Origin: a virus | Length of the DNA stretch: 31,138 nt | IMG/VR virus record: IMGVR_UViG_3300046727_000202 | Location: 1-31,138 of that record | Direction: 5' to 3' (one strand) | Shown here: positions 54 through 20,930 of the stretch, piece by piece | Layout of the letters: each line of letters starts with the position of its first letter | Numbering within the stretch: the stretch's first letter is position 1 | Translations under genes and position numbers: made by a program | The notes under the pieces: generated by a model | What the model was told of the DNA's origin: nothing | Databases searched by the model: none | The model's input: only the letters and a program-made list of their open reading frames with translations

Positions 54-671
54 ATGGCGAAGGTCGTACGAATAACAGATAACGTAACGAATGGCGGCAA
101 GGAGGCGATCAACGCGGAGTTGCCGTATGTCGCGAATGTCTCGATCCGAGGGTCAGCCGATGTTCTGTTCCACAGGTGGAACGCGGAAAGCGTTGAGACC
201 AAAGGGAAAGCCGCGAAAAACAGCGCGGCGAAAAAGACCGACGATGTCGAGTCGTATGTCTATCGCGACGAAAATGGAATGATCTGCATGCCCGGGGAAT
301 ACCTGCGTGGCGCGATCATCCAGGCTTCGAAGTTCAGGCAAGATCCGCGCTCTCCAAGAAAGTCCGCCATGGATCTCTACAAGGCGGCGATCGTTTCGCT
401 GACGCCGCTGGCGTCTTTTGGGACAAAGGACTGGGATTACGAGGACAGGCGCCGCGTTGTCATTCAGCGTGCTGGCATCAACAGAATCCGCCCGGCGATG
501 CGGGTCGGCTGGACCTGTGACTTCAGGTTTTTGGTGACGCTACCGGAATATGTCAATCAGGATCAGTTGCACGAGGTCGTCACGCTCGCTGGCAGGATCG
601 GCGGCGTTGGCGATTTTCGACCAACCTACGGACGGTTTAGCGTCGTGAAATACAGCGTTTCCGAGGCGTAA
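54..671 (+). CDS. Conserved-looking phage protein bracketed by pentamer arrays; possible Cas7-like/RAMP fold
   Basis: This 205-residue protein starts at ATG 54, with AGGGGG (43-48) at good spacing, and ends in TAA. It is the only gene at this end on the plus strand. I do not recognise a characterised family by name. Visible features are a beta-strand-like start around residues 24-42, a Lys/Ala-rich segment around 49-62, a 'MPGEYLRGAIIQASKF' segment around 79-94, an Arg-rich strand ('RRRVVIQRAGINRIRP') around 132-147, and a C-terminal Gly-rich 'GGVGDFRPTYGRFSVV' segment around 183-198. The middle and C-terminal segments recall the 'PGSSLKGA' helix start and the Gly-rich loop of Cas7-like RAMP proteins. 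This is a remote resemblance judged by eye. The gene lies between two GGYNN arrays in the same transcription direction, which suggests that the protein binds the repeat RNA or DNA. No membrane segment or signal peptide is seen. Confidence 0.9.
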   Translation: MAKVVRITDNVTNGGKEAINAELPYVANVSIRGSADVLFHRWNAESVETKGKAAKNSAAKKTDDVESYVYRDENGMICMPGEYLRGAIIQASKFRQDPRSPRKSAMDLYKAAIVSLTPLASFGTKDWDYEDRRRVVIQRAGINRIRPAMRVGWTCDFRFLVTLPEYVNQDQLHEVVTLAGRIGGVGDFRPTYGRFSVVKYSVSEA

Positions 672-673
672 CA

Positions 674-913
674 GGTTCGGCGTGGCGCGCCGAGGTGGGG
701 TGTGGCCCGGCGGGGCACGGTCCGGTTAGGCAAGGTGTGGCTTGGCGCGGCCCGCCGTGGTTAGGCGAGGCGCGGCGAGGCAGGGCGTGGTCAGGTCAGG
801 CGAGGCGCGGTCGGGTTTGCCGGGGTGAGGCGTGGCAGGGCCGGGCGGGGTAGGGCGCGGCGGGGCTAGGCGGGGTCCGGCGTGGCGGGGCTTGGTAGGG
901 CGAGGCGAGGTGG
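674..913 (+). repeat. Right GGYNN pentamer array, 48 units in perfect phase
   Basis: Starting two bases after the stop codon, 48 pentamers follow without a single insertion or deletion (240 bp). Positions 1-2 are GG in 45 units and GC in three (689, 754, 819). Position 3 is a pyrimidine in all 48 (32 C, 16 T). Positions 4-5 vary, with 13 of the 16 dinucleotides present and GG, GA and GT the most common. The units are not identical copies, so this is not a recent slippage product; what is conserved is the 5-base phase. The last unit overlaps the foot of the terminator hairpin, so the array forms the whole 3' untranslated part of the upstream gene's transcript. No ORF with plausible coding character crosses it. 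Confidence 0.95.
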
Positions 914-5642: not shown

Positions 5643-5954
5643 TCAGTCCACGTCGGACCACGTAAAGGTGTAAGAACAACCCGGCTTGTCGGCGATTTGC
5701 TCCGGATTATCCGGCCAGATGTTACAGCCGCTCAGGTAATAGCCGTGCTGGTTCGGTGGTTCGTGACCGATACAAAAGCCTTCGCCCTCTGGCGCCCCGG
5801 CATGCACCTCGTAAAGTGGACACATTCCCTGGACCGGCGGATCGCGCAGCATCGGATCGTCGGGCGAAAGCACGGGTGGCGGCACCATCCAAAGCAATGG
5901 CGTGCCGACGCAGCACTGGCCGCAGCGGCAGCACGAACCGGAACGAACCCACAT
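5643..5954 (-). CDS. Cys-rich YkgJ-like metal-binding protein
   Basis: This 103-residue protein starts at ATG 5954, overlapping the TAA of the HNH gene (TAATG). Its N-terminus carries CCRCGQCC (Cys8, 9, 11, 14 and 15). More cysteines follow in MCPLYE, GFCIGHE, SGCNIW and KPGCSY. The CxxCGxCC-plus-spaced-Cys pattern resembles the YkgJ/Fe-S-cluster or zinc-chelate family (CxxCCxxC-type proteins). The protein therefore probably binds a metal or metal cluster; what it does in a phage late operon is unknown. It is short compared with bacterial members, and the cysteines span almost the whole chain. Confidence 0.85.
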   Translation of the reverse strand: MWVRSGSCCRCGQCCVGTPLLWMVPPPVLSPDDPMLRDPPVQGMCPLYEVHAGAPEGEGFCIGHEPPNQHGYYLSGCNIWPDNPEQIADKPGCSYTFTWSDVD

Positions 5955-6649
5955 TAGGTTGTTCTTTTCGAAGCAAGTCGCGCTCGATAACGCCGCGTCC
6001 TTTCGGCTGCCTTGGAGTTAGAATTACCCAGTCTTGGCGGCGGTGGCTCTGCAGTAATTGCTTGACCAACACTCCATCCGAGATCGTTTAGTCGCGTTGC
6101 GACGGCAGTCGGATGTTGTCCATATCGTCTAGCCCATTCGATCATTGGAAGAGTTTCCCCTTGGTATTCAATCAAACGAACATTTCTGGGCTTGCGTAGC
6201 GGCGGCGGCTCGTATCCAAGCGCCTGACCAGTTGTCCACTTGTCGCGGTCGAGGCGCATGAGGATGGTCAATCTCTTGATGCCGGTTTCAGTCGCCCAAT
6301 CGGCAAGAATCATTGACCGTCCATTGTAATTGACATAGCGGTTGACGGTGGTGTTCCTCGATTGCTCAACGGGTGTCGCCCAGACACAATTGTCGGGTCC
6401 GTAATCGCCATGCACATCGCGCCGTTCGAGCGTCGTCCCTGGCGGACGAGGCCCCATATCCTCGTAGAATGCGCGAAACGCGGTTCGCCAATGCTCACAC
6501 ACCTTGATGCCGCGAGCGCCGTAATTTGTGTAATGATCAGACTTAGAGTTATAGCAACGGGTGAGCATGTTGCGCCACGCCATATACTCCGGCGTCCTCG
6601 ACATGCCGTGAATGTCGCGGATTTTGTTCGGACGATTGTCCTGCTTCAT
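5954..6649 (-). CDS. HNH-type homing endonuclease with C-terminal DNA-binding repeats
   Basis: This 231-residue protein starts at ATG 6649, with AAGGAG 9 bases upstream. The N-terminal half has the phage HNH pattern: 'PEYMAWRNMLTRCYN', 'NYGARGIKVCEHW', then 'LERRDVHGDYGPDNCVWAT' and 'QSRNT' (His80, Asn87 and Asn99 are candidate active-site residues). Two helix-turn-helix-like repeats follow, each starting Y-x-G and ending GQA (about residues 109-143 and 160-198). They recall the NUMOD-type DNA-binding modules of homing enzymes. The tail is basic. The gene separates a small structural gene from the YkgJ-like gene and looks like an inserted selfish element. It should cut DNA at a site in phages lacking the insert. 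Confidence 0.9.
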   Translation of the reverse strand: MKQDNRPNKIRDIHGMSRTPEYMAWRNMLTRCYNSKSDHYTNYGARGIKVCEHWRTAFRAFYEDMGPRPPGTTLERRDVHGDYGPDNCVWATPVEQSRNTTVNRYVNYNGRSMILADWATETGIKRLTILMRLDRDKWTTGQALGYEPPPLRKPRNVRLIEYQGETLPMIEWARRYGQHPTAVATRLNDLGWSVGQAITAEPPPPRLGNSNSKAAERTRRYRARLASKRTT

Positions 6650-7158: not shown

Positions 7159-9960
7159 TTATTCGCTAAGATCCGGATACAGAAATCGCTGCATTTCTTT
7201 CTCGGCGCGACGGTTTCGCAGATACGACGTGCCCATTTTGACGCCGATATTGCCAAAGACGGGAACCGCGTGCCCCACCACCGCATGCGCCGCCGCTTCA
7301 CCGAAACGCTCGCCCATTTCCTGCATCATTGAGGTCCATGAACCTCTGGGTTTCCCGGTCTCAAGGAACATCTGCCGCTTCACATGGTCGGTTATGTTCC
7401 ACAACCGATCCATCTGCGCCTCGGACAGTCCATAAGCCGGGTCCATCGGATCGCCTCGCCCCTCGATCACGTCACGCATGAAGCCGAACCATTTCGCTGG
7501 GGTTATTCGCAAATTAGCGTTTAGCAACCTCAGTCTGTTCTCTTGCAGGAAGCGCATCGCGGCGATCTCGCTCGCCGCCCTGGCGTAGTTGGCGCGATAT
7601 TCCGCGAACCCCGGCGCCACGTCCTCGATGCGGTTATAGAGATCGTTCTTGATCATCGTCAGTTCGCGTTTCAGCACGCGTGCTGAACCGACCGTTTCAG
7701 TATCGCCGACTCCGTTCAACAGGTCGTTGATATGCTCACCGATGCCATAGAGCGTGTAGGGATCGGTCTTTAGATTGCCGTCCGCGTCGTAAAACTTGTC
7801 TCTCAGGGGCTGAAGTATCTTGACGACGGAATTGCGTTCCGCATGCCGTGGATCGTCCAGAAAGTCGTCCATCAGTCTGAGGGTAGACGATGGGTCCGCC
7901 GGGGGCCGTTGCGATCCCGGCTCGCCGAATACCTTTTTGATATCCGCCTGCGCCTGAAGGTCCTGCTTCTCTTCCATGCGATCGAGCGTGATCTTCGCGC
8001 CCGCCGTGTTGGCGTACTCCTCTGTTATCGCGTCAGCGGCTCTGGTCTCCCGTTCGACGTGGTGCGGGTTCGCCACCGGCTGTTGGCGGTTATAGGCCTG
8101 CTCCATGGCGACGACCGGGTCGCCCGTGACCTCGGCCAGGGTCGGGTCGGCGCCTTTGATGTAGACCGTTTTGTCGCCGGGGCGGGGTGGCGTGGCGAGC
8201 CGCTCGATCTCGCCTTGCTGGCGGATGCTGTCCGCTTCGGATGCGGTCGGCAACAGATCGGCGGCGGGTGTCCCCTCGCGCGAGGCGGCGGCGCCGACTG
8301 ATCCGGTCATGTCGGGTGTGGGGACAGGCGGCGGCGCGACCGGCGATCGCGTTCCCGGGATCGGCATGGTCTGTTCTGGCGGCGGCGGCGTGATCGAGGT
8401 CGTCCGCCCGGTGAGCGGATCGGTGGTCGAGGTCGGCGGCACCATGGCCGGTCGCTCGGCTTCCTGGCGGTCGGTCTCGCGCAACAGGTCCATGATGCGC
8501 GGCAGCAGGGGTGGCGGGGTGCCGGGCGGCACCATGGCTGGCTGGTTGGCCGCGCCCGCGGCGTTTTCCCGGCGGGCGGTTATGAACGCTTCCTCGATCG
8601 TGCCGCCGTCGCGCGCCTGCACCTCGGCGGCGGTCATGGGCCTGTAGGGCACGGGTGGCGGCTCTTCTCTGCCCGCCGCCACCTCGCGCGCCTGGGCGGT
8701 CGCCGCCGTCGCCGCCGCCGTATCCCTGGCCTCGGTGGCCGGGCCGGGCGCCGTGGCCTGATTCACCCGCTGGTAGAGATCCGACGCCCGCGCGTCGGTG
8801 GCCGGGTCCGCGCTGACCACGTCCGACGCTGCCCTGACGGCTGTCTCGACATCGGGCGCGTCGAGAACCGGCTTGATCACGTCGGCGATGGGCGGCGGCG
8901 CCGTCCGCGCGCTCTCCGCGATGCGTTGGGCGGCGTTGACCGTCGAGGGGATGACGAGGCCGGCGACGAATCCCTCCAGCGCCGCGTCCTGGGTGCCGTC
9001 CATCAGGCCGCGCTTCGGGTCGAAACTCTGCTGTGCGACGTAGTTGTTGACGACCGTGCCCAGCGTGTTGCCGGCGCTGAACTCCACGCCGTTCTGGCCG
9101 AGGTTCACCAATGTTTTGACCAACCCCTCGCGTAGATCCATCGGCACGCGCGGGATGATCCTGGCCAGCGGCACGGTCATGATGATCGCCTGGCCCATCG
9201 CGGCCTTGCCCGCGGCGTCGTCTGCCTGTTCGGGGGTCTGACCTTTGCCGATCGCTTCCTGGTAGGTGGCATCGTAGGTCTGCGAGCCGACCGCCGCCAT
9301 GCTCGCCAGCATGCCGCCGCCGGGTCCACCCACGGCGGTCCCGAGGGCACCCGCGGCCAGCACGGGACCGGCGCCGCCGATCATGCGGGCGATGCCCGTC
9401 TGCCGCCCCTCCAGCGCCGGGTCGACCGGGAACGCGCTCTGGCCAAAGCCCTGCACCGCGCGACCGGCGCGCATCAGGGCATTAGGCTCGCGTGCCTCCA
9501 GTTCATCCTTCGCGCCACCGAGATCCGCGCGTGCCTTGGCGCGTTGCTCGGGGGACAGGTACTGGTAGCCGATAGGGTCTTGCTGGTCGGGGACGGTCTC
9601 GCCGCGATCGATGGCGTCCATCGTCGCCGTCTGCGCCCTGGCCATACGCGGGCCAGCTTCCTGATACGTGCGGCCCACGCCGCTGACGATGCCGCCCGTG
9701 CCGCCCACGGCGCCCTGCGCGAGAGCGTTCACGTCGGCGCCGATCTGGGTTTGCGGCCCGCCGATCGTGGGGAACCCGACCATGCCCTCGACGCCCATCG
9801 TGGGCGGGGGCGCCTGCGAATAGCCGATCTTCGACGCGAACGTATCGAACGGCATGTCTTTGTAGAACTTGTCGTGCAGTCCCTGCGCGAGTTGATCGTC
9901 CGACAGGTCGTTATACTGCGGGAATTGCTGCCGAACCGTCGCCATGTTGAGGTCTGGCAT
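7159..9960 (-). CDS. Large internal (ejection-type) virion protein, 933 aa
   Basis: The start is ATG 9960, six bases after the preceding stop, with AGG at suitable spacing. Residues 1-47 ('ATVRQQFPQYNDLSDDQLAQ' and 'MPFDTFASKIGY') form a short module that I know from the N-termini of phage internal virion proteins. A hydrophobic Gly/Ala segment lies at about 190-225. A stretch 'EAIGKGQTPEQADDAA' at about 235-250 is also typical of such proteins. The middle (about 400-620) is a low-complexity Pro/Ala/Arg linker, and the C-terminal 250 residues are helical. It is probably carried in the capsid and injected, helping the genome cross the envelope. No catalytic motif is evident. Confidence 0.9.
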   Translation of the reverse strand: MPDLNMATVRQQFPQYNDLSDDQLAQGLHDKFYKDMPFDTFASKIGYSQAPPPTMGVEGMVGFPTIGGPQTQIGADVNALAQGAVGGTGGIVSGVGRTYQEAGPRMARAQTATMDAIDRGETVPDQQDPIGYQYLSPEQRAKARADLGGAKDELEAREPNALMRAGRAVQGFGQSAFPVDPALEGRQTGIARMIGGAGPVLAAGALGTAVGGPGGGMLASMAAVGSQTYDATYQEAIGKGQTPEQADDAAGKAAMGQAIIMTVPLARIIPRVPMDLREGLVKTLVNLGQNGVEFSAGNTLGTVVNNYVAQQSFDPKRGLMDGTQDAALEGFVAGLVIPSTVNAAQRIAESARTAPPPIADVIKPVLDAPDVETAVRAASDVVSADPATDARASDLYQRVNQATAPGPATEARDTAAATAATAQAREVAAGREEPPPVPYRPMTAAEVQARDGGTIEEAFITARRENAAGAANQPAMVPPGTPPPLLPRIMDLLRETDRQEAERPAMVPPTSTTDPLTGRTTSITPPPPEQTMPIPGTRSPVAPPPVPTPDMTGSVGAAASREGTPAADLLPTASEADSIRQQGEIERLATPPRPGDKTVYIKGADPTLAEVTGDPVVAMEQAYNRQQPVANPHHVERETRAADAITEEYANTAGAKITLDRMEEKQDLQAQADIKKVFGEPGSQRPPADPSSTLRLMDDFLDDPRHAERNSVVKILQPLRDKFYDADGNLKTDPYTLYGIGEHINDLLNGVGDTETVGSARVLKRELTMIKNDLYNRIEDVAPGFAEYRANYARAASEIAAMRFLQENRLRLLNANLRITPAKWFGFMRDVIEGRGDPMDPAYGLSEAQMDRLWNITDHVKRQMFLETGKPRGSWTSMMQEMGERFGEAAAHAVVGHAVPVFGNIGVKMGTSYLRNRRAEKEMQRFLYPDLSE

Positions 9961-9965
9961 GGGCG

Positions 9966-11486
9966 TTACCTGATCCCGAGGGGGTCTGATTTGGCGTCTC
10001 CACCCGGTTTCTGCCCGAGGCCCTTCTGGTTCATGACATCATTCAGCGTCTCGGTGCCCTTGCCATACTGCAACACATTGATATCATGATGCGTGAACGG
10101 AATGACTGTCGCCAACTTGTCCAGGCTTTCCTTAAGCGCCGACTTTTGCACGTCGGGGATTTTGGGGTCGGCCATGTTGGCCTTCATGCCCTCGGTGACG
10201 ATCTGGCGCAGTTCCGCCATCTTCCGCAGCTTGGTGAAGTACGTGTCGCCCGCGGTCAGCAGGATGGCGTCCATCGACTTGGTGAAGCTGGCGGGTGGCG
10301 CGAGACCGGACGACTCGATCGCCGCGAGGTTCCGCCCGAGGCCTGCCGCCATCACGTTGTAGTCCTGCACTTCCTGCGGCGAGAGCGCCTGGCTGAGTGT
10401 CGATTTCAACGCGCCCAGCAGGCTGGTGCCGGGATGATATCCACTAAGGATGCCTTCCGACGACGAGGACGGCATTTCCATGATGTTGGCAGCCGCCGCC
10501 GTGGCCATGTCGGTCGCCGCGGCGAGGCGCTTATACATCAGTTCCGCCCGGTTCCCCATGCCGCCCGCGCCGGGTTTGTTCGGGTTCGTATTGGTCGGAA
10601 TGAATGTGCTGCTGCCGTCCCGCATATTGAACCGCATGAAGCCCGGGATGGTGTTTTTGCCGCTCGGGTCGTCCGGATCTGGCGCGGTCGCCGCCTCAAA
10701 CTTGTAGGTGCCGGTGCGCTCGATCGCTTTCAGGCCGGAGATCCTTGCTTCGACCATCGCCGCGCGCTGACCGGGCGTCAGATCCTTATTCGCCGGGTCG
10801 TTGACGATGTCCTGGATGATGGCGGTGCGATTGGCCGCTTCCGACCCCTCCTGCGGGATGTGGTATTTCTCGTGGATAAAGCCCGACAGGATCTGTTCTT
10901 TGCTCAGACCGGCGATCGTTGGCCCGCCAGGTGCCGCCGTCGCCGTTGGCGGCGAAGTCGCGGCTGGCGGTGAAGTCGCGGCGTCCGTCGCCGGGCCGGT
11001 CGATACCGGCGGCGGCGCGGGACCGGTGCCCGTGTCCCAACCGCCCTGATCGACCGTTCCGGTGCCCCCGCCCGTGGCGGGTGGTGTCGGGCCGGTCGCG
11101 GGGGTGGCCGGAGACGTTCCCGTGATACTGCCGCCAAGCAGGCGCGTGAGGAACCGCTCGTCGGGTGTCGGCAAACCCGCCGTGAATGTCGCCAGGTCTT
11201 TCTGCGCCTGAAGCGTAGCCGCCCTGGCGGCGGCTTCACGCTGCATGATCTGCGTGTTTTCCAGGCCCTTCAGTTGCGTGCTGTAGCGGAACGTGTCGGC
11301 GCGCCCCGCTGCCTCCCGTGTCGTGGCCATGGCGTCGGCCTGCCGCGCCGCCTCGGCCTCCAGCGCCGATCTGGCCTGGAGGAGGTTCATCGCGCCTTCG
11401 TTGGCCTGCGCCTGCGCGCCGTAGTGCGCCGCGTAGTCGGACACCGCGCCACCCATGCCGGCTAACGCGTTCAACAAGCTTGCCAT
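9966..11486 (-). CDS. Helical virion protein, probable ejection protein, 506 aa
   Basis: The start is ATG 11486, with AGAGG about 10 bases upstream. The first 115 residues are Ala/Gln/Glu-rich helix ('MASLLNALAGMGGAVSDYAA' and so on). A Pro/Thr/Gly-rich linker spans about 125-195, and a mixed helical C-terminal part follows. There is no catalytic motif or clear membrane segment. The N-terminus MASLLNALAG resembles that of the neighbouring transglycosylase (MSLLNALGGA) and, more weakly, of two other proteins in this cluster. Position between the transglycosylase gene and the 933-residue gene supports a role as an internal virion protein. Confidence 0.88.
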   Translation of the reverse strand: MASLLNALAGMGGAVSDYAAHYGAQAQANEGAMNLLQARSALEAEAARQADAMATTREAAGRADTFRYSTQLKGLENTQIMQREAAARAATLQAQKDLATFTAGLPTPDERFLTRLLGGSITGTSPATPATGPTPPATGGGTGTVDQGGWDTGTGPAPPPVSTGPATDAATSPPAATSPPTATAAPGGPTIAGLSKEQILSGFIHEKYHIPQEGSEAANRTAIIQDIVNDPANKDLTPGQRAAMVEARISGLKAIERTGTYKFEAATAPDPDDPSGKNTIPGFMRFNMRDGSSTFIPTNTNPNKPGAGGMGNRAELMYKRLAAATDMATAAAANIMEMPSSSSEGILSGYHPGTSLLGALKSTLSQALSPQEVQDYNVMAAGLGRNLAAIESSGLAPPASFTKSMDAILLTAGDTYFTKLRKMAELRQIVTEGMKANMADPKIPDVQKSALKESLDKLATVIPFTHHDINVLQYGKGTETLNDVMNQKGLGQKPGGDAKSDPLGIR

Positions 11487-11498
11487 GCCCGTTCGCCT

Positions 11499-12062
11499 CT
11501 ATTTTGCCTGCGCGGCCAGCCGCACGATGCGTTGAAGCACGTCGCCCACATAGCCGGATGTCGACTTGCCGTTCGTGTCGACCCGGTCCTCTTTCCACGG
11601 CGTGTTGAAGGCCAGCGGGGACATGTTGCCCTGGCCGGAGAAGTAACCCACCGCCGTTCGGGCTGCGTCGCCGTTCGCCCGACGATAGAGATCCTCGATG
11701 ATACGGCGCCCAACGGCGCGATTATCATCGGGATTATCGATCTTCTCGCCCGGGAGCGCGTAGGCGTTGAAGGTCGCGGGGATGATCTGCATGCCGCCGC
11801 GCGCTCCCGCCGTGCTGGTCGCCGGGTTGGCGCCACCACCGCTCTCCTGGCCGTAGATCGCCTGCACGACATGCTCCAGCTTCGCGTCCCGCGGCCCGGC
11901 TGGCGGCGCGGCGGGTGCCGGTGGCGGCGTGTCGGGGGGTGCCACCGGGTCACGCGGCGGCGTGGCGTTCAGCAACGCCAGCTTGCGCTCGGTGTTGACC
12001 GCGTCGGCGTAGCCCGTGCCGAACCCCTCCATGGCGCCGCCGAGGGCGTTCAGCAGGGACAT
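11499..12062 (-). CDS. Virion-associated lytic transglycosylase (SLT-like)
   Basis: This 187-residue protein has a variable N-terminus (about 1-58, Pro-rich from 34) and then an SLT/lysozyme-like domain. 'YGQESGGG' carries the expected catalytic glutamate (Glu73) and 'GARGGMQIIPATF' matches the GxxGxMQ-x-x-P-x-T/S-F motif of soluble lytic transglycosylases. These enzymes cleave the glycan strand of peptidoglycan, here probably to open a local hole during DNA ejection. The gene lies among ejection-type genes rather than in a lysis cassette, which supports an entry role. ATG 12062 has only a weak ribosome binding site. It is separated from the upstream minus gene by about 300 bases that carry a plus-strand gene. 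Confidence 0.88.
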   Translation of the reverse strand: MSLLNALGGAMEGFGTGYADAVNTERKLALLNATPPRDPVAPPDTPPPAPAAPPAGPRDAKLEHVVQAIYGQESGGGANPATSTAGARGGMQIIPATFNAYALPGEKIDNPDDNRAVGRRIIEDLYRRANGDAARTAVGYFSGQGNMSPLAFNTPWKEDRVDTNGKSTSGYVGDVLQRIVRLAAQAK

Positions 12063-12078
12063 GTCTGGCGTTTCATCC

Positions 12079-12084
12079 TATAAT
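12079..12084 (+). promoter_or_regulatory. Possible -10 promoter box (TATAAT) for the lone plus-strand gene
   Basis: A perfect TATAAT stands in otherwise GC-rich sequence, 42 bases before the ATG at 12126 and pointing towards it. No good -35 box is visible at the usual spacing (the best is around GGGACA, 12055-12060). It may be an extended or activator-dependent promoter, or chance. Confidence 0.35.
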
Positions 12085-12125
12085 GTCCTATATTCCCGAT
12101 GAGATTGTTCGGAGACCCGCGCGTC

Positions 12126-12491
12126 ATGGCCCCAAAGTTCTTCAACGCGAGACGCGTGCCATCCTGGCGCGACCCCGAGTTCCCTGATGTACCCACAGGC
12201 ACGGGAAGAATGTCGAACCTGGGTCTCATGTGGGAGCTGCAATCCAAACGAGGCCTGCCGCCGATCACCAATATGATGAACCCGTATATGGGCAGGCCTT
12301 TCATGCGCCTGTCCTGGTGGGACAAGAAACAGAAGAAGACGCGCGGGGTCGATATCTGGTCCGATGTCGTCATGACCCCGCATCAGTGGAATTCTCTCCA
12401 CCCTGAAGCGCGCCGCCTAGTCCCACACCGCCTGCTGCCGCGGGCAATCCTTTGTAGCCGTTTGCTCGCGCCCACGCCAAAGCGTCCCTGA
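12126..12491 (+). CDS. Lone plus-strand protein of unknown function inside the minus operon
   Basis: This 121-residue protein has its start at ATG 12126, with GGAGA 9 bases upstream; an earlier in-frame ATG (12099) lacks a site. The frame uses GC-rich third positions and has a normal, Trp-rich composition ('PSWRDPEFPDVP', 'MRLSWWDKKQKKTRG', 'DIWSDVVMTPHQWNSLHPEA'). The competing minus-strand frames in the same region look random. The last 40 codons overlap the 3' end of the converging 961-residue gene. I do not recognise the family. Orientation, own TATAAT and isolation suggest a separately expressed accessory gene (moron-like). Confidence 0.7.
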   Translation: MAPKFFNARRVPSWRDPEFPDVPTGTGRMSNLGLMWELQSKRGLPPITNMMNPYMGRPFMRLSWWDKKQKKTRGVDIWSDVVMTPHQWNSLHPEARRLVPHRLLPRAILCSRLLAPTPKRP

Positions 12492-15255
12492 GACGCCCCT
12501 CCGCGATCAGGCGGTGCCATAGTTCGTAGTCGGGACGCTGGCCAAGCTGCCCGCTGTCACGCAGCAACCGCAGGATCTCCTGCGAATGCGCGGCCTCGTT
12601 GGGGTCGTCCATCAGGCTGCGGTAAGCACCTGGCGCGGTGGCGCGACCGGCCTGTAGCCGCTCGTCCATGTAACGCGTGGCCTGACCCTGACCCTGCCTT
12701 GCCGCCTCAAGGCGGTTGTTCGACCCGAAATCGGTATAGTCGGCGTATTTGCTGTGGCTGAGAGTGTCCGCTCGCCCGATCGTGGCGTCTGGAACGATCT
12801 TTTTGATCTCGTCGGCCATACCGGTGTCCAGCTTCTTTTGGACGACACCGCCCTTTAACGCCGGATCCAGATTGAGGAACCCGGCTCCCTCCCCAGTATT
12901 GGCGAACGTGAACCCATATTTGTCAGCGAGCCTGACCAACGCCGCGGCTTCGGCTTCCGTCGTGGCTCTGCCGAGGTCGATCGTCACGCTGGTCGCGTTG
13001 CCGCTCGGCGCGCGGCGGTCCCAGTAGGTCACCGGACTCCCCGCCTGGAAGTCGCTCAGGCCTCGCACATGCGCGGCCATGTCCAGCGCCGTCATGGTGG
13101 CCGGGTCAGCGATCCGGCGCGGTGGCGATTCAGGCGTCCGAGGCGTTGTTCGGGTCCCTACCTGTGGTCTGGCGACACTCACCGGATTGATCTGCGGTGG
13201 CCCAGGCGGCTCGATCCAGCCGCCATAGCCGCCTTGCTGGGTCGCGCGGTTGATGATCCCCATGTGGGTCAGTTGCGGATCGACGCCGCCGGGGTTCACG
13301 CGCCTCATGGCGGCGGTCCAGTCCTCGGGGGACATGCTGCCCGTCGTCAGGCCGATGCCGCCGCCGGGCACCCCCTCATACGGCATCGAGGCCTCATAGA
13401 AGCGCCCGAGGTCCGGATAGGTCGCGTTGGCGCGTCGTAACGCCTCCTCCGGGGACAGGTTAAACCGGCGCTGGAGGCTCTCCATCTTGCCGGCCACCCA
13501 CGGCGCCGCCTGGATCTCGGCGGCGGTCCAGTTGTTTCGACCTCCCAGGTTTTTGGCGTTGGCGCGGTTCACCGCCTGGATCGTCTCATAGTCGAGCCAG
13601 TTATGCTGCGCCGGCCCGAATGCCTTGCTCCACTCCGCGCCGGTCACCGGGTCAGCGAAACCAAACGCCCTGCCATGCCAGATATCGTTCGTTCCGGTGG
13701 AACCGTAGGGGGCGGTCGGGTCCATGTGCTGGCGGTAAATGTCGGTCTTTTTGCCCAGCGGCATGCGCGGGAGCAACTCAGGGGTAAGCGTCTGTTCCGG
13801 GTCGTTCGGCAGCGAATTGCGGCCCGGGGTCTGATTGGCGAGGAACTCTTCCTGGGCGTCTCGCGCGGCGTTGAGCGTGCGCGCCTGCTGCCCGGTTCGC
13901 ACGATGTCGGCTGGCGTGCCAGCCGCGCGGGAATTCCGCCCGAACGCGGCGAAGCCCGTGTTGGTGCCTGGATCGGCCTGCGCCGACGTGAGCGCCCATT
14001 CTTCCGCGATCTGGCGCGCCAGGATCGGATCGCCGCCGGAGAGTTCATTGATGTAGGCGTGGACCCTGAAATACCAGTCGCTGCCGCCGGCCCCGCGCTC
14101 GACCTGGGCGTCGAAGGCATCGCGCAGGCGCTGCACGTCCTCCATCGTCTTCGTGTTGGGCGGCGCGCCAACGAAATTCCCGTCCGGACGTTTGAACGCC
14201 AGGTGCGGGTCGGTCGACGCGACCACGGACGCTTCCTCGGGGGGGATGTTGCGAAGGCTGGGCAGGCTGGCGCTGCCGCGCTCACCCTTGCCGACCCTGT
14301 TCAGCGCCGCCACGCCGCTGTCCAACAGGCGCCCGCGCCCGGCCATGAGTTCATCATAGGCTTCCGGCGTCAGACCCAGCGTGGCGCCTCTGGCGGCTTC
14401 CACGCCGCGGCCCTGGTCGAACAGCTCTCCCGGCCCGAGGCGGGACAGTACAGGCGGGGCGCCGGGTTCGACAAAAGCGGGACGCGCCGCGGGCGCGAAG
14501 TCGACATGCGGCGCGAACTCAGCGGGAGGAACGAATTCCGGCACCGCTGGCGCGAATTTCCTGGCTGCCAGAGGCCCGGCCCGGCGGAACGCGTTGGCGG
14601 CGAGAGCGCCCTCCGGCGCGGCCCCGCCCGTGCTCGCCGCCGGCACCACGTCGAGGGCGCCGGGCATCGCCAGAGAAGAATCCCCGCCAAAATATGGTTG
14701 CGTCTCGATCGGCAGGAAAGCGGCGCGGCGGTTAAGTTGTTCCGGATAGATGACTTTCCCATCCGGCATCTGAACCGCGCTGCCGCTGTCGGTTTCGATC
14801 CACTTCCCGCCTTCCGGCAGGGACACGCCTGGATGGCTGAGAGCGTCGGCGATCGGCGTCATGACATCGGCGGTCAGGAAGTCGCCAACAGCCCCCGCGC
14901 CGCGCTGGATGTTGGGCAGGATGTCACGCGCCGTGTCGCCCCAGGTGCGCTCCGTTGGCCCCTGAGACACCGATTGCAGCGTCTCGGTACCCACCGGGTT
15001 ATCCGGATTCCATATGGGCCGGGTCTCCCGTGGCCCGCCGCCGAACATGCCGCCCAGCCAGTCCATCACCGACTGCGCCGCACCGCCCACGTCAACGCCG
15101 GGTTTGGGCGCCGCCTCGGCGGTGCCGTCACGGGGCCGCGCGTTGGGTCCCTGGAACCCCTCGGTCGACTGCCCGATCCACTGCCCGTTCGCGTCGTACT
15201 CATCGTAGGCCCGGGGCGGCGGCGCTTCGTTGGCGCCATTGATGATGCTCGCCAT
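12370..15255 (-). CDS. Large internal (ejection-type) virion protein, 961 aa
   Basis: The start is ATG 15255, two bases after the upstream stop. The N-terminal 250 residues are Pro/Gly/Ala-rich and poorly ordered. A helical domain covers about 360-650, with motifs such as 'WYFRVHAYINELSGGDPILA', 'ADPGTNTGFAAFGRN' and 'FNLSPEEALRRANATYPD'. It resembles domains of the large polyvalent or internal proteins of phages. A second module with 'SHSKYADYTDFGSNN' lies at about 820-870. No catalytic site is certain. It is probably packaged in the capsid with its neighbours. The 3' end is overlapped by the converging plus-strand gene. Confidence 0.9.
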   Translation of the reverse strand: MASIINGANEAPPPRAYDEYDANGQWIGQSTEGFQGPNARPRDGTAEAAPKPGVDVGGAAQSVMDWLGGMFGGGPRETRPIWNPDNPVGTETLQSVSQGPTERTWGDTARDILPNIQRGAGAVGDFLTADVMTPIADALSHPGVSLPEGGKWIETDSGSAVQMPDGKVIYPEQLNRRAAFLPIETQPYFGGDSSLAMPGALDVVPAASTGGAAPEGALAANAFRRAGPLAARKFAPAVPEFVPPAEFAPHVDFAPAARPAFVEPGAPPVLSRLGPGELFDQGRGVEAARGATLGLTPEAYDELMAGRGRLLDSGVAALNRVGKGERGSASLPSLRNIPPEEASVVASTDPHLAFKRPDGNFVGAPPNTKTMEDVQRLRDAFDAQVERGAGGSDWYFRVHAYINELSGGDPILARQIAEEWALTSAQADPGTNTGFAAFGRNSRAAGTPADIVRTGQQARTLNAARDAQEEFLANQTPGRNSLPNDPEQTLTPELLPRMPLGKKTDIYRQHMDPTAPYGSTGTNDIWHGRAFGFADPVTGAEWSKAFGPAQHNWLDYETIQAVNRANAKNLGGRNNWTAAEIQAAPWVAGKMESLQRRFNLSPEEALRRANATYPDLGRFYEASMPYEGVPGGGIGLTTGSMSPEDWTAAMRRVNPGGVDPQLTHMGIINRATQQGGYGGWIEPPGPPQINPVSVARPQVGTRTTPRTPESPPRRIADPATMTALDMAAHVRGLSDFQAGSPVTYWDRRAPSGNATSVTIDLGRATTEAEAAALVRLADKYGFTFANTGEGAGFLNLDPALKGGVVQKKLDTGMADEIKKIVPDATIGRADTLSHSKYADYTDFGSNNRLEAARQGQGQATRYMDERLQAGRATAPGAYRSLMDDPNEAAHSQEILRLLRDSGQLGQRPDYELWHRLIAEGRLRDALAWARANGYKGLPAAAGGVGLGGALQGGENSTDAGS

Positions 15256-15883: not shown

Positions 15884-17001
15884 GCTGTCGCTCCCGTAAC
15901 GGCTGATGTGGGCGCGCGGTTGATCAGGCCCGCCGCGCCCGGCAGTTGCGTACCCAAGGCTGGCACGCTGCCGACCGGCGGCGAGTAGGCGACGGCTTTC
16001 GGCGCGGCGATATTGGCGTATTGTTGATCGCGCAGTTTCGCGAGGTCGAGGTTGGCCTGTGCGTTGGCGTTATAATAATTGTTCTGCGCGTCGGTGGTGC
16101 CGCCGAGGCCTTTGAGCAGGCCGAAACCACCGTTCACGAGGCCCGAGGCGAGCGTCTGGTTGTCCTTGGCCCAGGACGTTATTCCGGCGAACTGTCTGCC
16201 CAACCAGCCCGGCGGGTCCGCTGGAGTTCCCGAGGTTGCGGTCGCGTTCGCCGTGGTCTGCCCGGGTGCCCCGGTGACCGCGCCGGGTTTAACGGCGTTC
16301 GGATCGGACGGACCCATGGGCGAGGTGGTATCGACGTTCTTTGAGAGAGGCCCGCCGTCCTGACCCGCCTGGACCGGATCGGCCTTCGGCTGCCCTGGTA
16401 CCTGCGCGGAGGGTGCGTTGGGGTCGGGAGCGGCCCCGCTGACGACGCCCTTACTGTCCCCGACCGTCGCGTTGCTTGTGTCCACCTGGGCGGATATCTG
16501 ATTCGTCGCGGTCGCCGGGTTCGTGGCCATGGACAGTTGCGCGTTCGGCGCCCATGCCGCCTGCGCCGCGAGATCCGGCGCGCCCGTCGCCGTCGTCGGC
16601 GCGACATCCCACGACCCGCTGTCGACAAACCCTTCGCCGCCCGTGCCAGCGCCACCGGTCGTGGCCGGGGTCATGCTGTCGGCGAACGTCGCACCGGTAT
16701 CACCGGTCAGGCTCGCGCCGCCGGAACTGGCCGGCGTGAAGATCGATCCGGCTTCGGAACCGAACACGCCCGCGCTCGACGCGATGCCGCCGACTCCACC
16801 GACCACGCCCAGGCCCAACCCGATCATTTGCAAGGTCTTGTTCTTGGTGATAGCGCCGACCGCGCCGATCGTCGCGCCGACCGCGCCAAGCACGGCGAAG
16901 CCAGCCGTCGCGATGGCCACCGTGCCAGCGATGGCGCCGGCTGTCGCGGCACCAGCCGCGGCGACGGCGAACACCGCCGCGAAAGCGGGGACTGCGGGCA
17001 T
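15880..17001 (-). CDS. Gly/Ala-rich membrane-active virion protein, probable ejection pore component
   Basis: This 373-residue protein starts at ATG 17001, with GAGGGG upstream. Residues 5-51 are a long Ala/Gly/Val run and residues 58-78 a second one ('MIGLGLGVVGGVGGIASS'), with a short Lys-containing break ('TKNKTLQ'). This is a pattern of membrane-inserting glycine-zipper helices. The centre is a Thr/Gly/Ala/Pro-rich linker, and the C-terminal part has a short helical segment ending 'LAKLRDQQYANIAAPKA'. The protein could form or line the channel for DNA ejection, as proposed for podovirus ejection proteins. This is inference from composition and position. Confidence 0.87.
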   Translation of the reverse strand: MPAVPAFAAVFAVAAAGAATAGAIAGTVAIATAGFAVLGAVGATIGAVGAITKNKTLQMIGLGLGVVGGVGGIASSAGVFGSEAGSIFTPASSGGASLTGDTGATFADSMTPATTGGAGTGGEGFVDSGSWDVAPTTATGAPDLAAQAAWAPNAQLSMATNPATATNQISAQVDTSNATVGDSKGVVSGAAPDPNAPSAQVPGQPKADPVQAGQDGGPLSKNVDTTSPMGPSDPNAVKPGAVTGAPGQTTANATATSGTPADPPGWLGRQFAGITSWAKDNQTLASGLVNGGFGLLKGLGGTTDAQNNYYNANAQANLDLAKLRDQQYANIAAPKAVAYSPPVGSVPALGTQLPGAAGLINRAPTSAVTGATA

Positions 17002-17024
17002 TCAGGTTTTCCCCTCGGAGTTGA

Positions 17025-17522
17025 TCAGCGGGGCACGCCCCGTGTCGCGCGATCGATGAAGTCGCCAGTGTCTTTCTCAAGGTAATGATGCATCGCGTCG
17101 TAGCGCGCCTCGGCTTCATCACCGCTCTGATAAGCCGGGAATTGCTCGATGCCGAACCGGTGCGCCGCCGCGATGGCGGCATCCGGCTCCAGCGCCTTGC
17201 CACCCCACACGGTGGGGATGTTGTAGGTCTTGCCGTCGTCGTTTTCGAAAGACATTTGCAACAAGGACGACACGCCACCATCCGGATGGACGATCTTGCC
17301 GGTGCCGTAAAGGTTGTTGAGATGCACGTTGTAGAGAAACTTTTCCTCCGGCGTGAGCGACATCGCCGCGTCGGCCTCGGCCATGTGGTTGGCGCGCGGG
17401 CCGGGATCGATCCGCTTCAGCGCGTCGAGGTATTCGGGCGACGGCGGCGGTTCCTCGGCCAGCGGTGGCCGCGGCACCATCGGCGCCGGTCCCATGTCCA
17501 GGTTGTTGATCAGCGAAGCCAC
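17025..17522 (-). CDS. Virion-cluster protein with 'LNNLYGTGK' module
   Basis: This 165-residue protein starts at GTG 17522, 13 bases inside the end of the upstream gene. After a Pro-rich N-terminus, residues 60-158 form a compact module: 'LYNVHLNNLYGTGKI', 'LLQMSFE', 'TYNIPTVWGGK', 'FPAYQSGDEAEARYDAMHHY', 'LEKDTGDFI'. I recognise this module from phage proteins encoded near internal virion genes, where it can occur alone or within longer chains; its function is unknown. The N-terminus MASLINNL resembles those of other proteins of this cluster. No catalytic triad can be assigned. Confidence 0.88.
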   Translation of the reverse strand: MASLINNLDMGPAPMVPRPPLAEEPPPSPEYLDALKRIDPGPRANHMAEADAAMSLTPEEKFLYNVHLNNLYGTGKIVHPDGGVSSLLQMSFENDDGKTYNIPTVWGGKALEPDAAIAAAHRFGIEQFPAYQSGDEAEARYDAMHHYLEKDTGDFIDRATRGVPR

Positions 17523-17884: not shown

Positions 17885-19281
17885 CCTTCACCGCCCCCGC
17901 CGCCTGGGTTGGTATTGGTCGGGTTATCCGGAGTGCCGGTGCTGTACGTCGGAGATCCTGACGCCGGGGTCGCGGTCGAACCCGGCGGGCCAAGCTGCCG
18001 CTGATCACCGAGGTTCGACGGTGGCCCCGTCGAAGAATTCGCATCTGAGGACGGCTGTCCGAACCGCAGCACGGAGTTGATGTTCGTGTTGGCGTCGATG
18101 TTGCCGAACATTTTGAGACCCTCGTTGAGGGTATCCATGGTGTTGTTCATCGCCGTCGCCTGCTGGTCGGTATTCAGGTTCGGGTTGGTCATGAACGCCT
18201 GAATGTTCTGCAACGCGGAGGAGTAAAGCTGCTGCGCCCCGGCGGAGTTTTGCAGCACGCGCTTGTTGTCTTCCTGGATCTGCGTGATGCGCTGTTGCGC
18301 GGTCGAATTGGCCGCGATGTTGGCCAGCGCGCCAGCGTTGACGAGGTTCTGCGCGGCCAGCGTCGTCGCGTTGTTGCCCTGCGCGATGATCTGCGCCGAC
18401 GCGGTTTGCTTGTCGGTCACCGACAGGCTGGTGTCGGCCTGGATCTGGGCGATCCGCTGCGCGCTCGTGTTGTTCAGCGTGGCGAGGATCTGCGCCGCTG
18501 ACGAAGCCTTGTCCTGCAACGTCAGTTGCGTGTTGGCGCTCAACTGCCCAAGGGCCAATTGTGCGTTTGTCTGAATATTCTGCGCGGCCAATGTGGTCGC
18601 GTCCTGCTTCTCCTGGTTCGTCAGGCTGGTGTCGGACTGGATCTTGGCGATCTGCTGGCTGGTCTGACTGATCTTGTCCTGCACCGACAGGCTGGTGTTG
18701 GACTGGATGTTCGCGATGTCCTTCTGCGACTGCGTCTGGATCTGGGCGATGTTGGTCTGGCCGGAGATCTGTTGCGCCTGCAATTTCGCCGTGTTCTGCG
18801 CCGTGGTGGTGTCCGTCGCCGCCTTGGCGTAGGTCGCGGCGTCGGCGGTGGCGATCGGCGTGGCCGCGCTGTAGAGCGCGCTCTGCCCGGCGGTGATCGC
18901 CTGCGACGAATTGATCAGCCCGCGTTGCTGCATGAGGTTGCGGGCGTTCGCCTCGGCCTGCTGCATGAGCGGCGAGCCGGAAGCGATGATGTTGCCGATC
19001 TGATGTGAAACGGTCTGATCCGGAGTGACGTTGAACGCGTTCGGCGCGTTCGGGTCCGGTGTGACGGGCGGCGTGACCGGAGGAGGCGTCGGCGGCGTCG
19101 GCGTGGCGCCTGGCGCCGCCGCGGGGGCGGTGTTCGGCGGCGTGGCCGGCGCGCTGGTGCCGTCCGGTGCCGGCGCGCTGTTGATCAGGCCGTTCGCGGG
19201 CGGCGTGGTGGCTGGCGCGGTGCCGGGGATCGGCGGCGGGATGGTCGGGGTATTAAGCCCCGGGCTGAGGGACGCGGACAT
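17881..19281 (-). CDS. Gln/Asn-rich repeat helical virion protein, 466 aa
   Basis: The ATG at 19281 overlaps the upstream stop (TGATG). An N-terminal Pro/Ala/Thr-rich stretch (1-80) is followed by a long Gln/Ala/Thr helical region (about 90-370). That region carries repeated units of form IAxIQx(D/N)TSLS-x-x-(D/E)K-Q, with at least three clear copies. A Pro/Gly/Ser-rich tail ends in GGGGGEG. The composition suggests a long helical or coiled-coil rod flanked by flexible ends. It is the first of the ejection-type gene group, following the S74 fibre gene. No enzyme motif or membrane helix is seen. Confidence 0.87.
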   Translation of the reverse strand: MSASLSPGLNTPTIPPPIPGTAPATTPPANGLINSAPAPDGTSAPATPPNTAPAAAPGATPTPPTPPPVTPPVTPDPNAPNAFNVTPDQTVSHQIGNIIASGSPLMQQAEANARNLMQQRGLINSSQAITAGQSALYSAATPIATADAATYAKAATDTTTAQNTAKLQAQQISGQTNIAQIQTQSQKDIANIQSNTSLSVQDKISQTSQQIAKIQSDTSLTNQEKQDATTLAAQNIQTNAQLALGQLSANTQLTLQDKASSAAQILATLNNTSAQRIAQIQADTSLSVTDKQTASAQIIAQGNNATTLAAQNLVNAGALANIAANSTAQQRITQIQEDNKRVLQNSAGAQQLYSSALQNIQAFMTNPNLNTDQQATAMNNTMDTLNEGLKMFGNIDANTNINSVLRFGQPSSDANSSTGPPSNLGDQRQLGPPGSTATPASGSPTYSTGTPDNPTNTNPGGGGGEG

Positions 19282-20930
19282 CAGCCGGCCTTCCCTTCCA
19301 ACGCCGCGAGGCGCGTGTTGAGCGTCTTCATGCCGTTTACGATCGCCGCCACGACCGGATCGAGCATAAGTCCGAGAACCGGGTCGTCGCTTTTAAGTGA
19401 GCCAGGCTTGTCCGGGTCGGGACCGCCGACCTGGATCACCGCGTCAGGGATGACCATGCGGAGTTCCTGGGCGGAAAAGCCGATATCGTAACGACCATGA
19501 ACAACGCCGTCATAACTCATGCGGCGGAATCGGATCGGGCTGATCGCCAACACCTCGGCGAGGCCCACGGTGGCGTCCTCGATGTCGGTTTTCATCCGTT
19601 CGTCGGATGTGCCGATATACGCGCCGTTGCCCTGCCAGGGTCCCAGCCAGTTCACGCCGATACTGCCAGGTCCGCTGTAAGCGAAGGTGACGAACAACGT
19701 GTTACCGGGCACCACCCATGTCAGCGAGCCATCGAGGGAACTCCAGTCCAAGGACCACTGGTTCGCGAACGCGAACCGGCGGTTATTGCCGGTGAAAGTA
19801 TAGAACTGCAACGAGCCGTCGGGGCCGGCCTGGACCGCGGTGTTTCCGCGCACCCAATCTCCGGTGATCGTACCAGAAGCGACGAGGGCGACGGTCGACA
19901 CCGACGCGTTGGCGGTGAAGGTGGCGGCGGTCACCGAACCGGTGATCGTCGCGTTGCCGCCGAATGTCGCGCTGCCGCCAAATGCCGCGTTGCCGGTGAT
20001 CGTCGCGTCGGCGCTCACCGTCAGGATGCCGCTGATCTTCGCCTGGCCGTTGAGGTCGATCTCCGTCGCCGTCAGGCCCACGCTGTTGGTCGTCATGCCG
20101 GAGCGGCTGACCGTCAGCCAGTTGACCACGCTGAGGAAGCTATCGTTCATCAGTCGCCCGCGAAGTTGGGCACTGGTTGACACGAAGTCGAACGCCTTGG
20201 CGTCGGTCCCCGCGGCGGGATCGTGAAGCACGACCCGGCCACCACCTGAGAGGGTCGCGACGTAAGTCGACGCGGTGACCGTCGTGCCGGTGAGCGGCCC
20301 CGTGAGAATGCCGCCACCAAGGGGCAGGAAGCCGTTTAGCTGGGTGCCGACATAGGCCTGGGTGGCGAGCGCGCCGACAGAAGCGCCGTCGTGATAGGCC
20401 TGCACCGCGGCCCCGTCCCAGCCGAACGCCATGGCATGGCCAAACCCGACGCCCGTGTAGGTCACGCCATTGCCCGCCACCGACAGCGGTCCTGAGAGGA
20501 CGCCTCCGGCGAGAGATAAGTACGGACCGCCCAGAGGCGGATGGGTGTCGACATAGCGCCTGGTCACCGCCATCAGGTCACTGGTCGGATCGCCCCGTAA
20601 CGTCAGATCCCCCGTCATGGCGCCGCCGCCGAACGTCATCAGCGTGCCATCCACCATCGGCAGCGTGAGATTGGTCGGGGCGTTCGCGAGCAATGTCGTG
20701 GGGAACGTCCCGGAGACGGAGAGGTCTCCACCCAGCGTCAACCGACCGGTGGTAAGCGTCAGCGCCGTGCCCGCCGGGTTCACGACCACGGCGCGCCCAC
20801 CGCTGCCCGCGAGCGACGGGAACAGGTCGAACGCCGCCGAAATAAGCTGGAATTCCGCCCTGATCGGCGCGGACGCGCCTGGAGTCGCCGTCCCTGGCGT
20901 TCCGGTGGGCGTGTAGAAGAAGTTGCTCAC
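19281..20930 (-). CDS. Tail fibre with C-terminal S74 intramolecular chaperone
   Basis: This 549-residue protein starts at GTG 20930, overlapping the upstream TGA (GTGA). The N-terminal part carries fibre repeats of the 'GGxLSGPLxVAG' and 'DPTSDLMAVTRRYVDTH' kind. The middle is a Thr/Ala/Val-rich beta stretch ('ITGNAAFGGSATFGGNATI'). From about residue 440 there is a peptidase S74 domain: 'TSDERMKTDI' followed by 'ISPIRFRRM' and 'DIGFSAQEL'. In this family the chaperone trimerises the fibre and cleaves itself off before the Ser of the S-D pair, predicted at Ser442. The protein probably contacts the host receptor. Confidence 0.92.
   Translation of the reverse strand: MSNFFYTPTGTPGTATPGASAPIRAEFQLISAAFDLFPSLAGSGGRAVVVNPAGTALTLTTGRLTLGGDLSVSGTFPTTLLANAPTNLTLPMVDGTLMTFGGGAMTGDLTLRGDPTSDLMAVTRRYVDTHPPLGGPYLSLAGGVLSGPLSVAGNGVTYTGVGFGHAMAFGWDGAAVQAYHDGASVGALATQAYVGTQLNGFLPLGGGILTGPLTGTTVTASTYVATLSGGGRVVLHDPAAGTDAKAFDFVSTSAQLRGRLMNDSFLSVVNWLTVSRSGMTTNSVGLTATEIDLNGQAKISGILTVSADATITGNAAFGGSATFGGNATITGSVTAATFTANASVSTVALVASGTITGDWVRGNTAVQAGPDGSLQFYTFTGNNRRFAFANQWSLDWSSLDGSLTWVVPGNTLFVTFAYSGPGSIGVNWLGPWQGNGAYIGTSDERMKTDIEDATVGLAEVLAISPIRFRRMSYDGVVHGRYDIGFSAQELRMVIPDAVIQVGGPDPDKPGSLKSDDPVLGLMLDPVVAAIVNGMKTLNTRLAALEGKAG

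Follow-up and report, generated by a model that had tools for sequence, protein, structure and literature searches.

A short gene on the plus strand of a stretch of viral DNA (the window, all 31,138 nucleotides of IMG/VR record IMGVR_UViG_3300046727_000202) very probably occupies a resident antisense slot at the 3′ end of a gene in the virion region, which here encodes a 961-residue protein. What appeared to be a stray gene becomes a rule: one wrong-strand position stays occupied across deeply diverged phages, and its occupant changes. Comparison of related sequences leaves little room for doubt that 12126-12491 is a real protein-coding gene under purifying selection. The best explanation as a whole, whose chances we put at about even, would be a small basic protein that this resident slot expresses early, from a host-type promoter, and that is directed at the host. 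The features of the region are the following, L004 being a related record:

11499-12062, minus strand: flanking gene for a 187-aa protein with an SLT transglycosylase domain
12050-12373, minus strand: open frame of 107 aa antisense to the slot gene, overlapping the stop of the 961-aa gene by ATGA
12056-12061, plus strand: weak -35-like hexamer GGGACA, with a 17-base spacer to TATAAT
12079-12084, plus strand: -10-like box TATAAT, sigma-70-like
12111-12115, plus strand: Shine-Dalgarno-like GGAGA, ten bases ahead of the ATG at 12126
12112-12400, no strand: stretch in which the window and L004 have diverged (0.35-0.90 in 20-base bins), with nearly identical flanks
12126-12491, plus strand: slot gene of family A (121 aa, pI 11.5, six Trp)
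12370-12491, no strand: 122 bases shared tail-to-tail by the slot gene and the 961-aa gene
12370-15255, minus strand: 961-aa partner gene, some of whose relatives match Pfam DUF7178; predicted DNA-glycosylase-like domain

The antisense slot opposite the 961-like gene

Two other records (L002 and L003) carry the slot gene at 100%, further relatives were found at 78, 65, 63, 59, 50, and 49% protein identity, the distinct ones being L004, L005, L010, L011, L012, and L020, and a profile search added L034 and L031. Family A thus has nine distinct sequences including the window, all matched at E 4e-43 or better by a profile that was built from seven of the same nine, and the eight distinct relatives besides the window are all in uncultivated phages. 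Profile searches with the slot protein gave no match in PHROGs or the PDB and a single sub-threshold hit in Pfam (GldC-like, 13.5 bits against a cut-off of 25), and the cultured phages searched gave one weak partial hit (E 0.9). The preliminary description had not recognized the family, in line with these searches, and had proposed a profile search for homologues in other contexts; none was found in the cultured phages or, by single-sequence and profile scans, in 84,980 bacterial and archaeal species genomes. The other slot proteins gave noise-level hits only in Pfam, PDB, PHROGs, and PADLOC.

In every one of the eight judgeable family A members (counting the window) the slot gene runs toward the 3′ end of the same 961-like gene; L010, the ninth, is truncated where its contig stops. 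The slot gene was never met without a 961-like neighbor where the contig was long enough. The overlap with the 961-residue gene on the other strand, which had been noted from the window, measures 122 bases there, and the same tail-to-tail arrangement is present in L004, L005, L011, L012, L020, L031, and L034. The other flank is variable, with the SLT gene in the window and a gene of 102-123 aa in L011 and L020.

The 961-like proteins form a large family of uncultivated phages, whose profile retrieved 46 loci. An antisense ORF was present in 33 of the 38 distinct 961-like genes with a readable 3′ end, a count in which the ORFs of L061 and L083 are probably chance frames, the start used for L035 lies too far upstream, and L056 and L067, which hold an antisense frame, go uncounted along with L063, L065, and L071; among the controls, 130 other long genes from the same loci, 17 had such an ORF. 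To be counted, an ORF had to have at least 50 aa, a start and a Shine-Dalgarno sequence (SD), and to end inside the 3′ end of the gene. The window meets this definition and is represented among the 33 by its identical copy L028. Under a stricter rule, with the ORF ending at least 30 bases inside the gene and a shorter search range, L061 and L083 dropped out, and the slot was occupied in 31/38 genes and in 25/31 clusters at 70% identity, compared with 15/130 controls.

The occupants belong to several families. Families A and B (L037, L042, and L047) are homologous, with an hhalign score of 38.1, where the best of 150 column shuffles reached 22.7; when the 961-like overlap is removed, the corresponding values are 20.4 and 15.9. 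Family B is linked in turn to B2 (96.7%), D (88.8%), and more weakly C (64.6%), and C to E (86.9%), so A is connected to C, D, and E solely through B; for families F and H, no relationship to A could be detected by sequence. A maximum-likelihood tree built from 32 961-like proteins groups the neighbors of A, B, B2, C, D, E, and L058 in a set of 14 rows (100/100), those of F in a set of 8 (80/67), and those of H in a set of 3. The types of slot gene follow the 961-like tree, and therefore the slot gene has been inherited with its neighbor, as a resident; no other finding weighs as much against a moron.

Allelic exchange seems to renew the slot protein itself, while the promoter on one side and the overlapped tail on the other stay constant. 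Over most of a 12-kb alignment, identity between the window and L004 is 91-100%, interrupted by divergent patches. Identity drops from 12101-12120 and recovers by 12401-12420, whereas 95-100% identity is kept in the promoter (12061-12100) and in the overlapped tail (12421-12491). On this alignment, 12112-12400 is a slot-gene allele that has been exchanged. Such patchiness is not confined to the slot gene, since divergence from L004 is also seen elsewhere in the window (10001-10600, 11201-11500, 11601-11700, 12801-13000, 15901-17500, 18001-18600, and 19001-20500); strong divergence amid near-identity at 10001-10600, 15901-17500, and 19001-20500 represents mosaic exchange.

Promoter-like signals and a SAM-V riboswitch in distant relatives

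The preliminary description had given the gene a TATAAT of its own that stands out from its surroundings. The box is present at 12079-12084, and its role as a promoter element is supported by placement and conservation, not by rarity, as the window contains two TATAAT against 1.64 expected, a number that by itself is not beyond chance. GGGACA and TATAAT together match the consensus at 10 of 12 positions, and one such promoter-like site was found in 1.6 kb where 0.2 were expected. A -10-like box (TATAAT, TAAACT, TATTAA, or TATGCT) with a shuffle p of at most 0.037, using approximate weights and mononucleotide shuffles, lies 28-41 bases 5′ of the start in six of the eight family A leaders, which amount to five independent cases because the leaders of the window and L004 share near-identical DNA; a convincing box was not found in the leaders of L034 (p 0.73) or L031 (p 0.14).

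It is somewhat probable from these signals that the slot gene is expressed early from a host-type promoter. Soon after infection, host RNA polymerase would start at the sigma-70-like promoter (12056-12084) and transcribe the gene without depending on the late operon; late transcription would later cross the region from the other side, and polymerase collision and antisense pairing could then damp the slot gene. A near-identical record of 50 kb encodes an antiterminator-like protein (phrog_6386), which is consistent with late transcription by the host polymerase.

In some distant relatives, a different kind of signal precedes the slot gene. The Rfam model of the SAM-V riboswitch (RF01826) matches directly 5′ of the slot gene in L043 and L044 at 43.2 bits, above the gathering cut-off of 41; scores that miss this cut-off were obtained for L040 and L041 (40.4 bits), L058 (30.2), and L062 (18.3). 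When the whole viral collection was scanned for a 26-base pattern of the aptamer core, 16 contigs were retrieved, several of which are the same phage; the 961-like gene adjoins on the opposite strand in 14 of them, and in the remaining two, L077 and L081, the aptamer is 40 and 77 bases away from the contig end. Counted as distinct full aptamers there are ten, nine of which lie beside a 961-like gene. SAM-V leaders of slot genes are present in L040, L041, L043, L044, L058, L059, L062, L073, L075, L080, L083, and L084, every resolvable one facing the same 961-like gene, and the aptamer occurs in three of the ten longer records, in one copy each. The SD lies at the 3′ end of the aptamer, as seen in the sequence, and SAM-V acts by holding the ribosome-binding site. 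In some distant relatives, SAM would thus additionally gate the equivalent gene at this site.

Rfam made no call on the leader of L042, and a SAM-II reading of it, made by eye, was dropped. Our own model (R1) adds L042 and L046, before a family B gene, at 22.4 bits (E 0.02 in 498 kb); its matches to its own aptamers are by construction, as it was built from ten pattern-selected aptamers. Covariation supporting the helices is scant among the aptamers, with one compensated pair, and aptamer DNA in cultured phages was limited to a 21-base chance match. The riboswitch is absent from the window's own family: RF01826 has no match at 11900-12500 of the window, and R1 has none in the window or in family A.

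Two architectures behind the aptamer were also observed. In L043 (2637-2765, minus strand, as in L085) and L044 (6019-6423, minus strand) the riboswitch is followed by a two-gene slot, whose first gene has 134 aa in L044 and is shortened to 42 aa in L043 and L085. In L075, a 92-aa gene (630-908, minus strand) stands behind SAM-V and is followed by a family-F-like slot gene, which links the F type to the riboswitch.

According to PMC9004378, riboswitches are a rare feature in phages, and the marine methylophage Melnitz carries a glutamine riboswitch; the likeness lies in a phage using a riboswitch, and the difference in another ligand and another gene (tmRNA). A tandem SAM-II/SAM-V before bhmT is described, in the relevant passages of PMC11508383, in Pelagibacter and not in phages. 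Our literature search, in which looser matches were judged by title and abstract, found no paper joining the SAM-V riboswitch and phages, and as far as this search reached, SAM-V before the slot gene would represent an undescribed use in phages. If that use holds, phage sensing of host SAM becomes a question for the bench. A broader and tentative proposal, on balance unlikely to hold in all its parts, is that this uncultivated phage group keeps a fast-changing early antisense gene, SAM-gated in many lineages, through which the phage would read the SAM (methylation or methionine) state of the host to set the dose of a small host-directed protein, opposite the gene of a DNA-glycosylase-like protein, and that the window's gene shed the riboswitch.

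The partner protein and the role of the slot protein

Three 961-like proteins, used in tblastn, found nothing in the cultured phage collection, and Pfam DUF7178, which was not found in our literature search, matches 10 of 24 members at E up to 0.1 (best 2.2e-5), the window's own protein being unmatched. A model of the last 631 residues, predicted from a 24-sequence alignment, reached a pLDDT of 86.9. Foldseek gave no match in the PDB at E ≤ 0.001 and 14 viral models within that limit, two of them named as polyvalent-associated. The structural relatives thus include viral "large polyvalent protein associated domain" proteins, a likeness to the phage polyvalent proteins of PMC5512222 that concerns the partner only; the word glycosylase is absent from the main text of that paper.

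A second look over the Foldseek candidates was led by DUF2419 (Z 8.2, 213 aligned) on the helical domain. The DNA glycosylases ROS1 and OGG1 fit the same domain at Z 5.8-6.9. Comparable Z values were obtained for RND transporters on a different part of the model, and values under 8 may reflect a mere common arrangement. A GKKT...TND motif has an invariant Lys and Asp at positions 173 and 194, which we take to resemble the Lys/Asp pair of helix-hairpin-helix glycosylases. As a weaker structural lead, the helical domain is predicted to be DNA-glycosylase-like.

The function of the slot protein has to be read from its anatomy, since its predicted structure is a poor model (mean pLDDT 49.4, with a low-confidence helix, two-strand hairpin, and short C-terminal helices) and no library names the protein. 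The product would be a small, basic, Trp-rich intracellular protein, most likely acting on the host in takeover or counter-defense. We consider a host-directed function plausible, at somewhat less than even chances, and the host-changing or anti-defense role suggested in the preliminary description is possible. It is favored over a role as partner of the 961-like protein because alleles change without the partner and because relatives carry a metabolite sensor.

As such a partner (inhibitor, chaperone, or antidote), the slot protein would restrain a DNA-glycosylase-like, perhaps injected 961-like protein during assembly. The two genes are never apart where this can be judged, slot types co-vary with the 961-like tree, and in its conserved part the 961-like protein is similar to DNA glycosylases (Z up to 8.2), whose activity might have to be controlled. 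The overlap by itself would lock both genes together, though, and the 961-like proteins of the window and L004 are 97% identical while the unshared part of the slot gene has strongly diverged, which argues against a strict lock-and-key partner and leaves this explanation unlikely.

The preliminary description took the gene for a moron, that is, for what we take to be an accessory gene with its own promoter among late genes; a foreign gene of this kind would be expressed from that promoter in lysogens. The likeness lies in a lone gene set against the orientation of its neighbors, with a promoter-like box of its own that is recognized by consensus only, and in a slightly lower GC content (GC3 0.77 in the unshared part, 0.80-0.85 in four neighboring genes). 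The difference is that morons are sporadic, whereas the slot gene is a resident, found at the same place in all eight judgeable family members, of types that track the 961-like phylogeny. Neither sporadic presence nor an empty site was found in close relatives, homologues elsewhere that would indicate a foreign origin were not found either in the cultured phages and genomes searched, and the SAM-V in front of the slot in some distant relatives does not give the look of a passing accessory gene. No integrase was found among 20 tested ORFs of the near-identical 50-kb record, and one ORF, L017:2840-3637, has weak regulator and repressor matches that would be compatible with a temperate life. A moron is thus improbable here. 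Elsewhere in the window, a 165-aa frame (17025-17522, minus strand) is largely missing from the corresponding site of L004; this insertion or deletion is more moron-like than the slot gene.

Equally improbable is a small late or virion assembly protein that is encoded on the other strand by chance. Conservation within the virion gene region and a basic, Trp-rich composition would suit it, but the promoter-like box of the gene faces the late operon, and a SAM riboswitch, present 5′ of the slot gene in several relatives, would be unusual for a structural protein.

Coding signal in the plus frame

The 121-residue, Trp-rich plus-strand gene with a ribosome-binding site, as first described, proved to be real, with its six Trp, GGAGA, and the frame 12126-12491; an alternative in-frame ATG at 12099 would yield a product of 130 aa. 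GGAG-type sequences also lie 5′ of the start in relatives, and start and SD are conserved. The gene had been called a lone plus-strand gene, and it is indeed opposite to both flanking genes, but a second plus-strand gene with a PHROG match (54-671, phrog_4652, E 4.7e-16) lies at the left end of the window. Loss of the frame in related phages had been named beforehand as a reason to abandon the gene, and the frame is conserved in them.

Values of dN/dS in the plus frame, for the window against each relative, are 0.07 (L004), 0.14 (L005), 0.15 (L010), 0.21 (L020), 0.35 (L012), and 0.45 (L011), and some pairs against L005, L011, and L012 reach 0.53; taken plainly, they are weak evidence because the wobble positions of the plus frame and of the minus ORF coincide. 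We therefore classed each difference by its effect in both frames, in seven aligned sequences (21 pairs) and outside the overlap with the 961 gene. Changes silent in the plus frame and replacing in the minus frame occurred at 1.99 times expectation and the converse class at 1.02 times; for the window and L004, the values were 3.22 and 0.46.

This selection also bears on whether the gene could work through antisense RNA, or through transcription interference, against the 961-like gene, its open frame being incidental. Such a transcript would span the 3′ end of the 961-like mRNA, and the arrangement is conserved among proteins of widely different sequence; clear purifying selection on plus-frame amino acids outside the overlap, along with the conserved start and SD, makes it very improbable. 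The 107-aa minus ORF needed to be excluded because it covers the same gap in the minus operon, is coupled to the 961-aa gene by ATGA, and is open in L005, L010, L011, L012, and L020, but with coinciding wobble positions, frame-separating classes that favor the plus frame, and a stop after five codons in L004, we give it practically no chance as the real gene, and on these comparisons it is a shadow of the plus gene.

Two other minus-strand genes of the window deserve mention. A 933-aa protein (7159-9960) weakly resembles a virion RNA polymerase profile (phrog_2206, E 9.5e-8) in the N-terminal part of that profile, and an HNH endonuclease (5954-6649; phrog_3377, E 4.7e-55), possibly a homing gene, is encoded among the structural genes.
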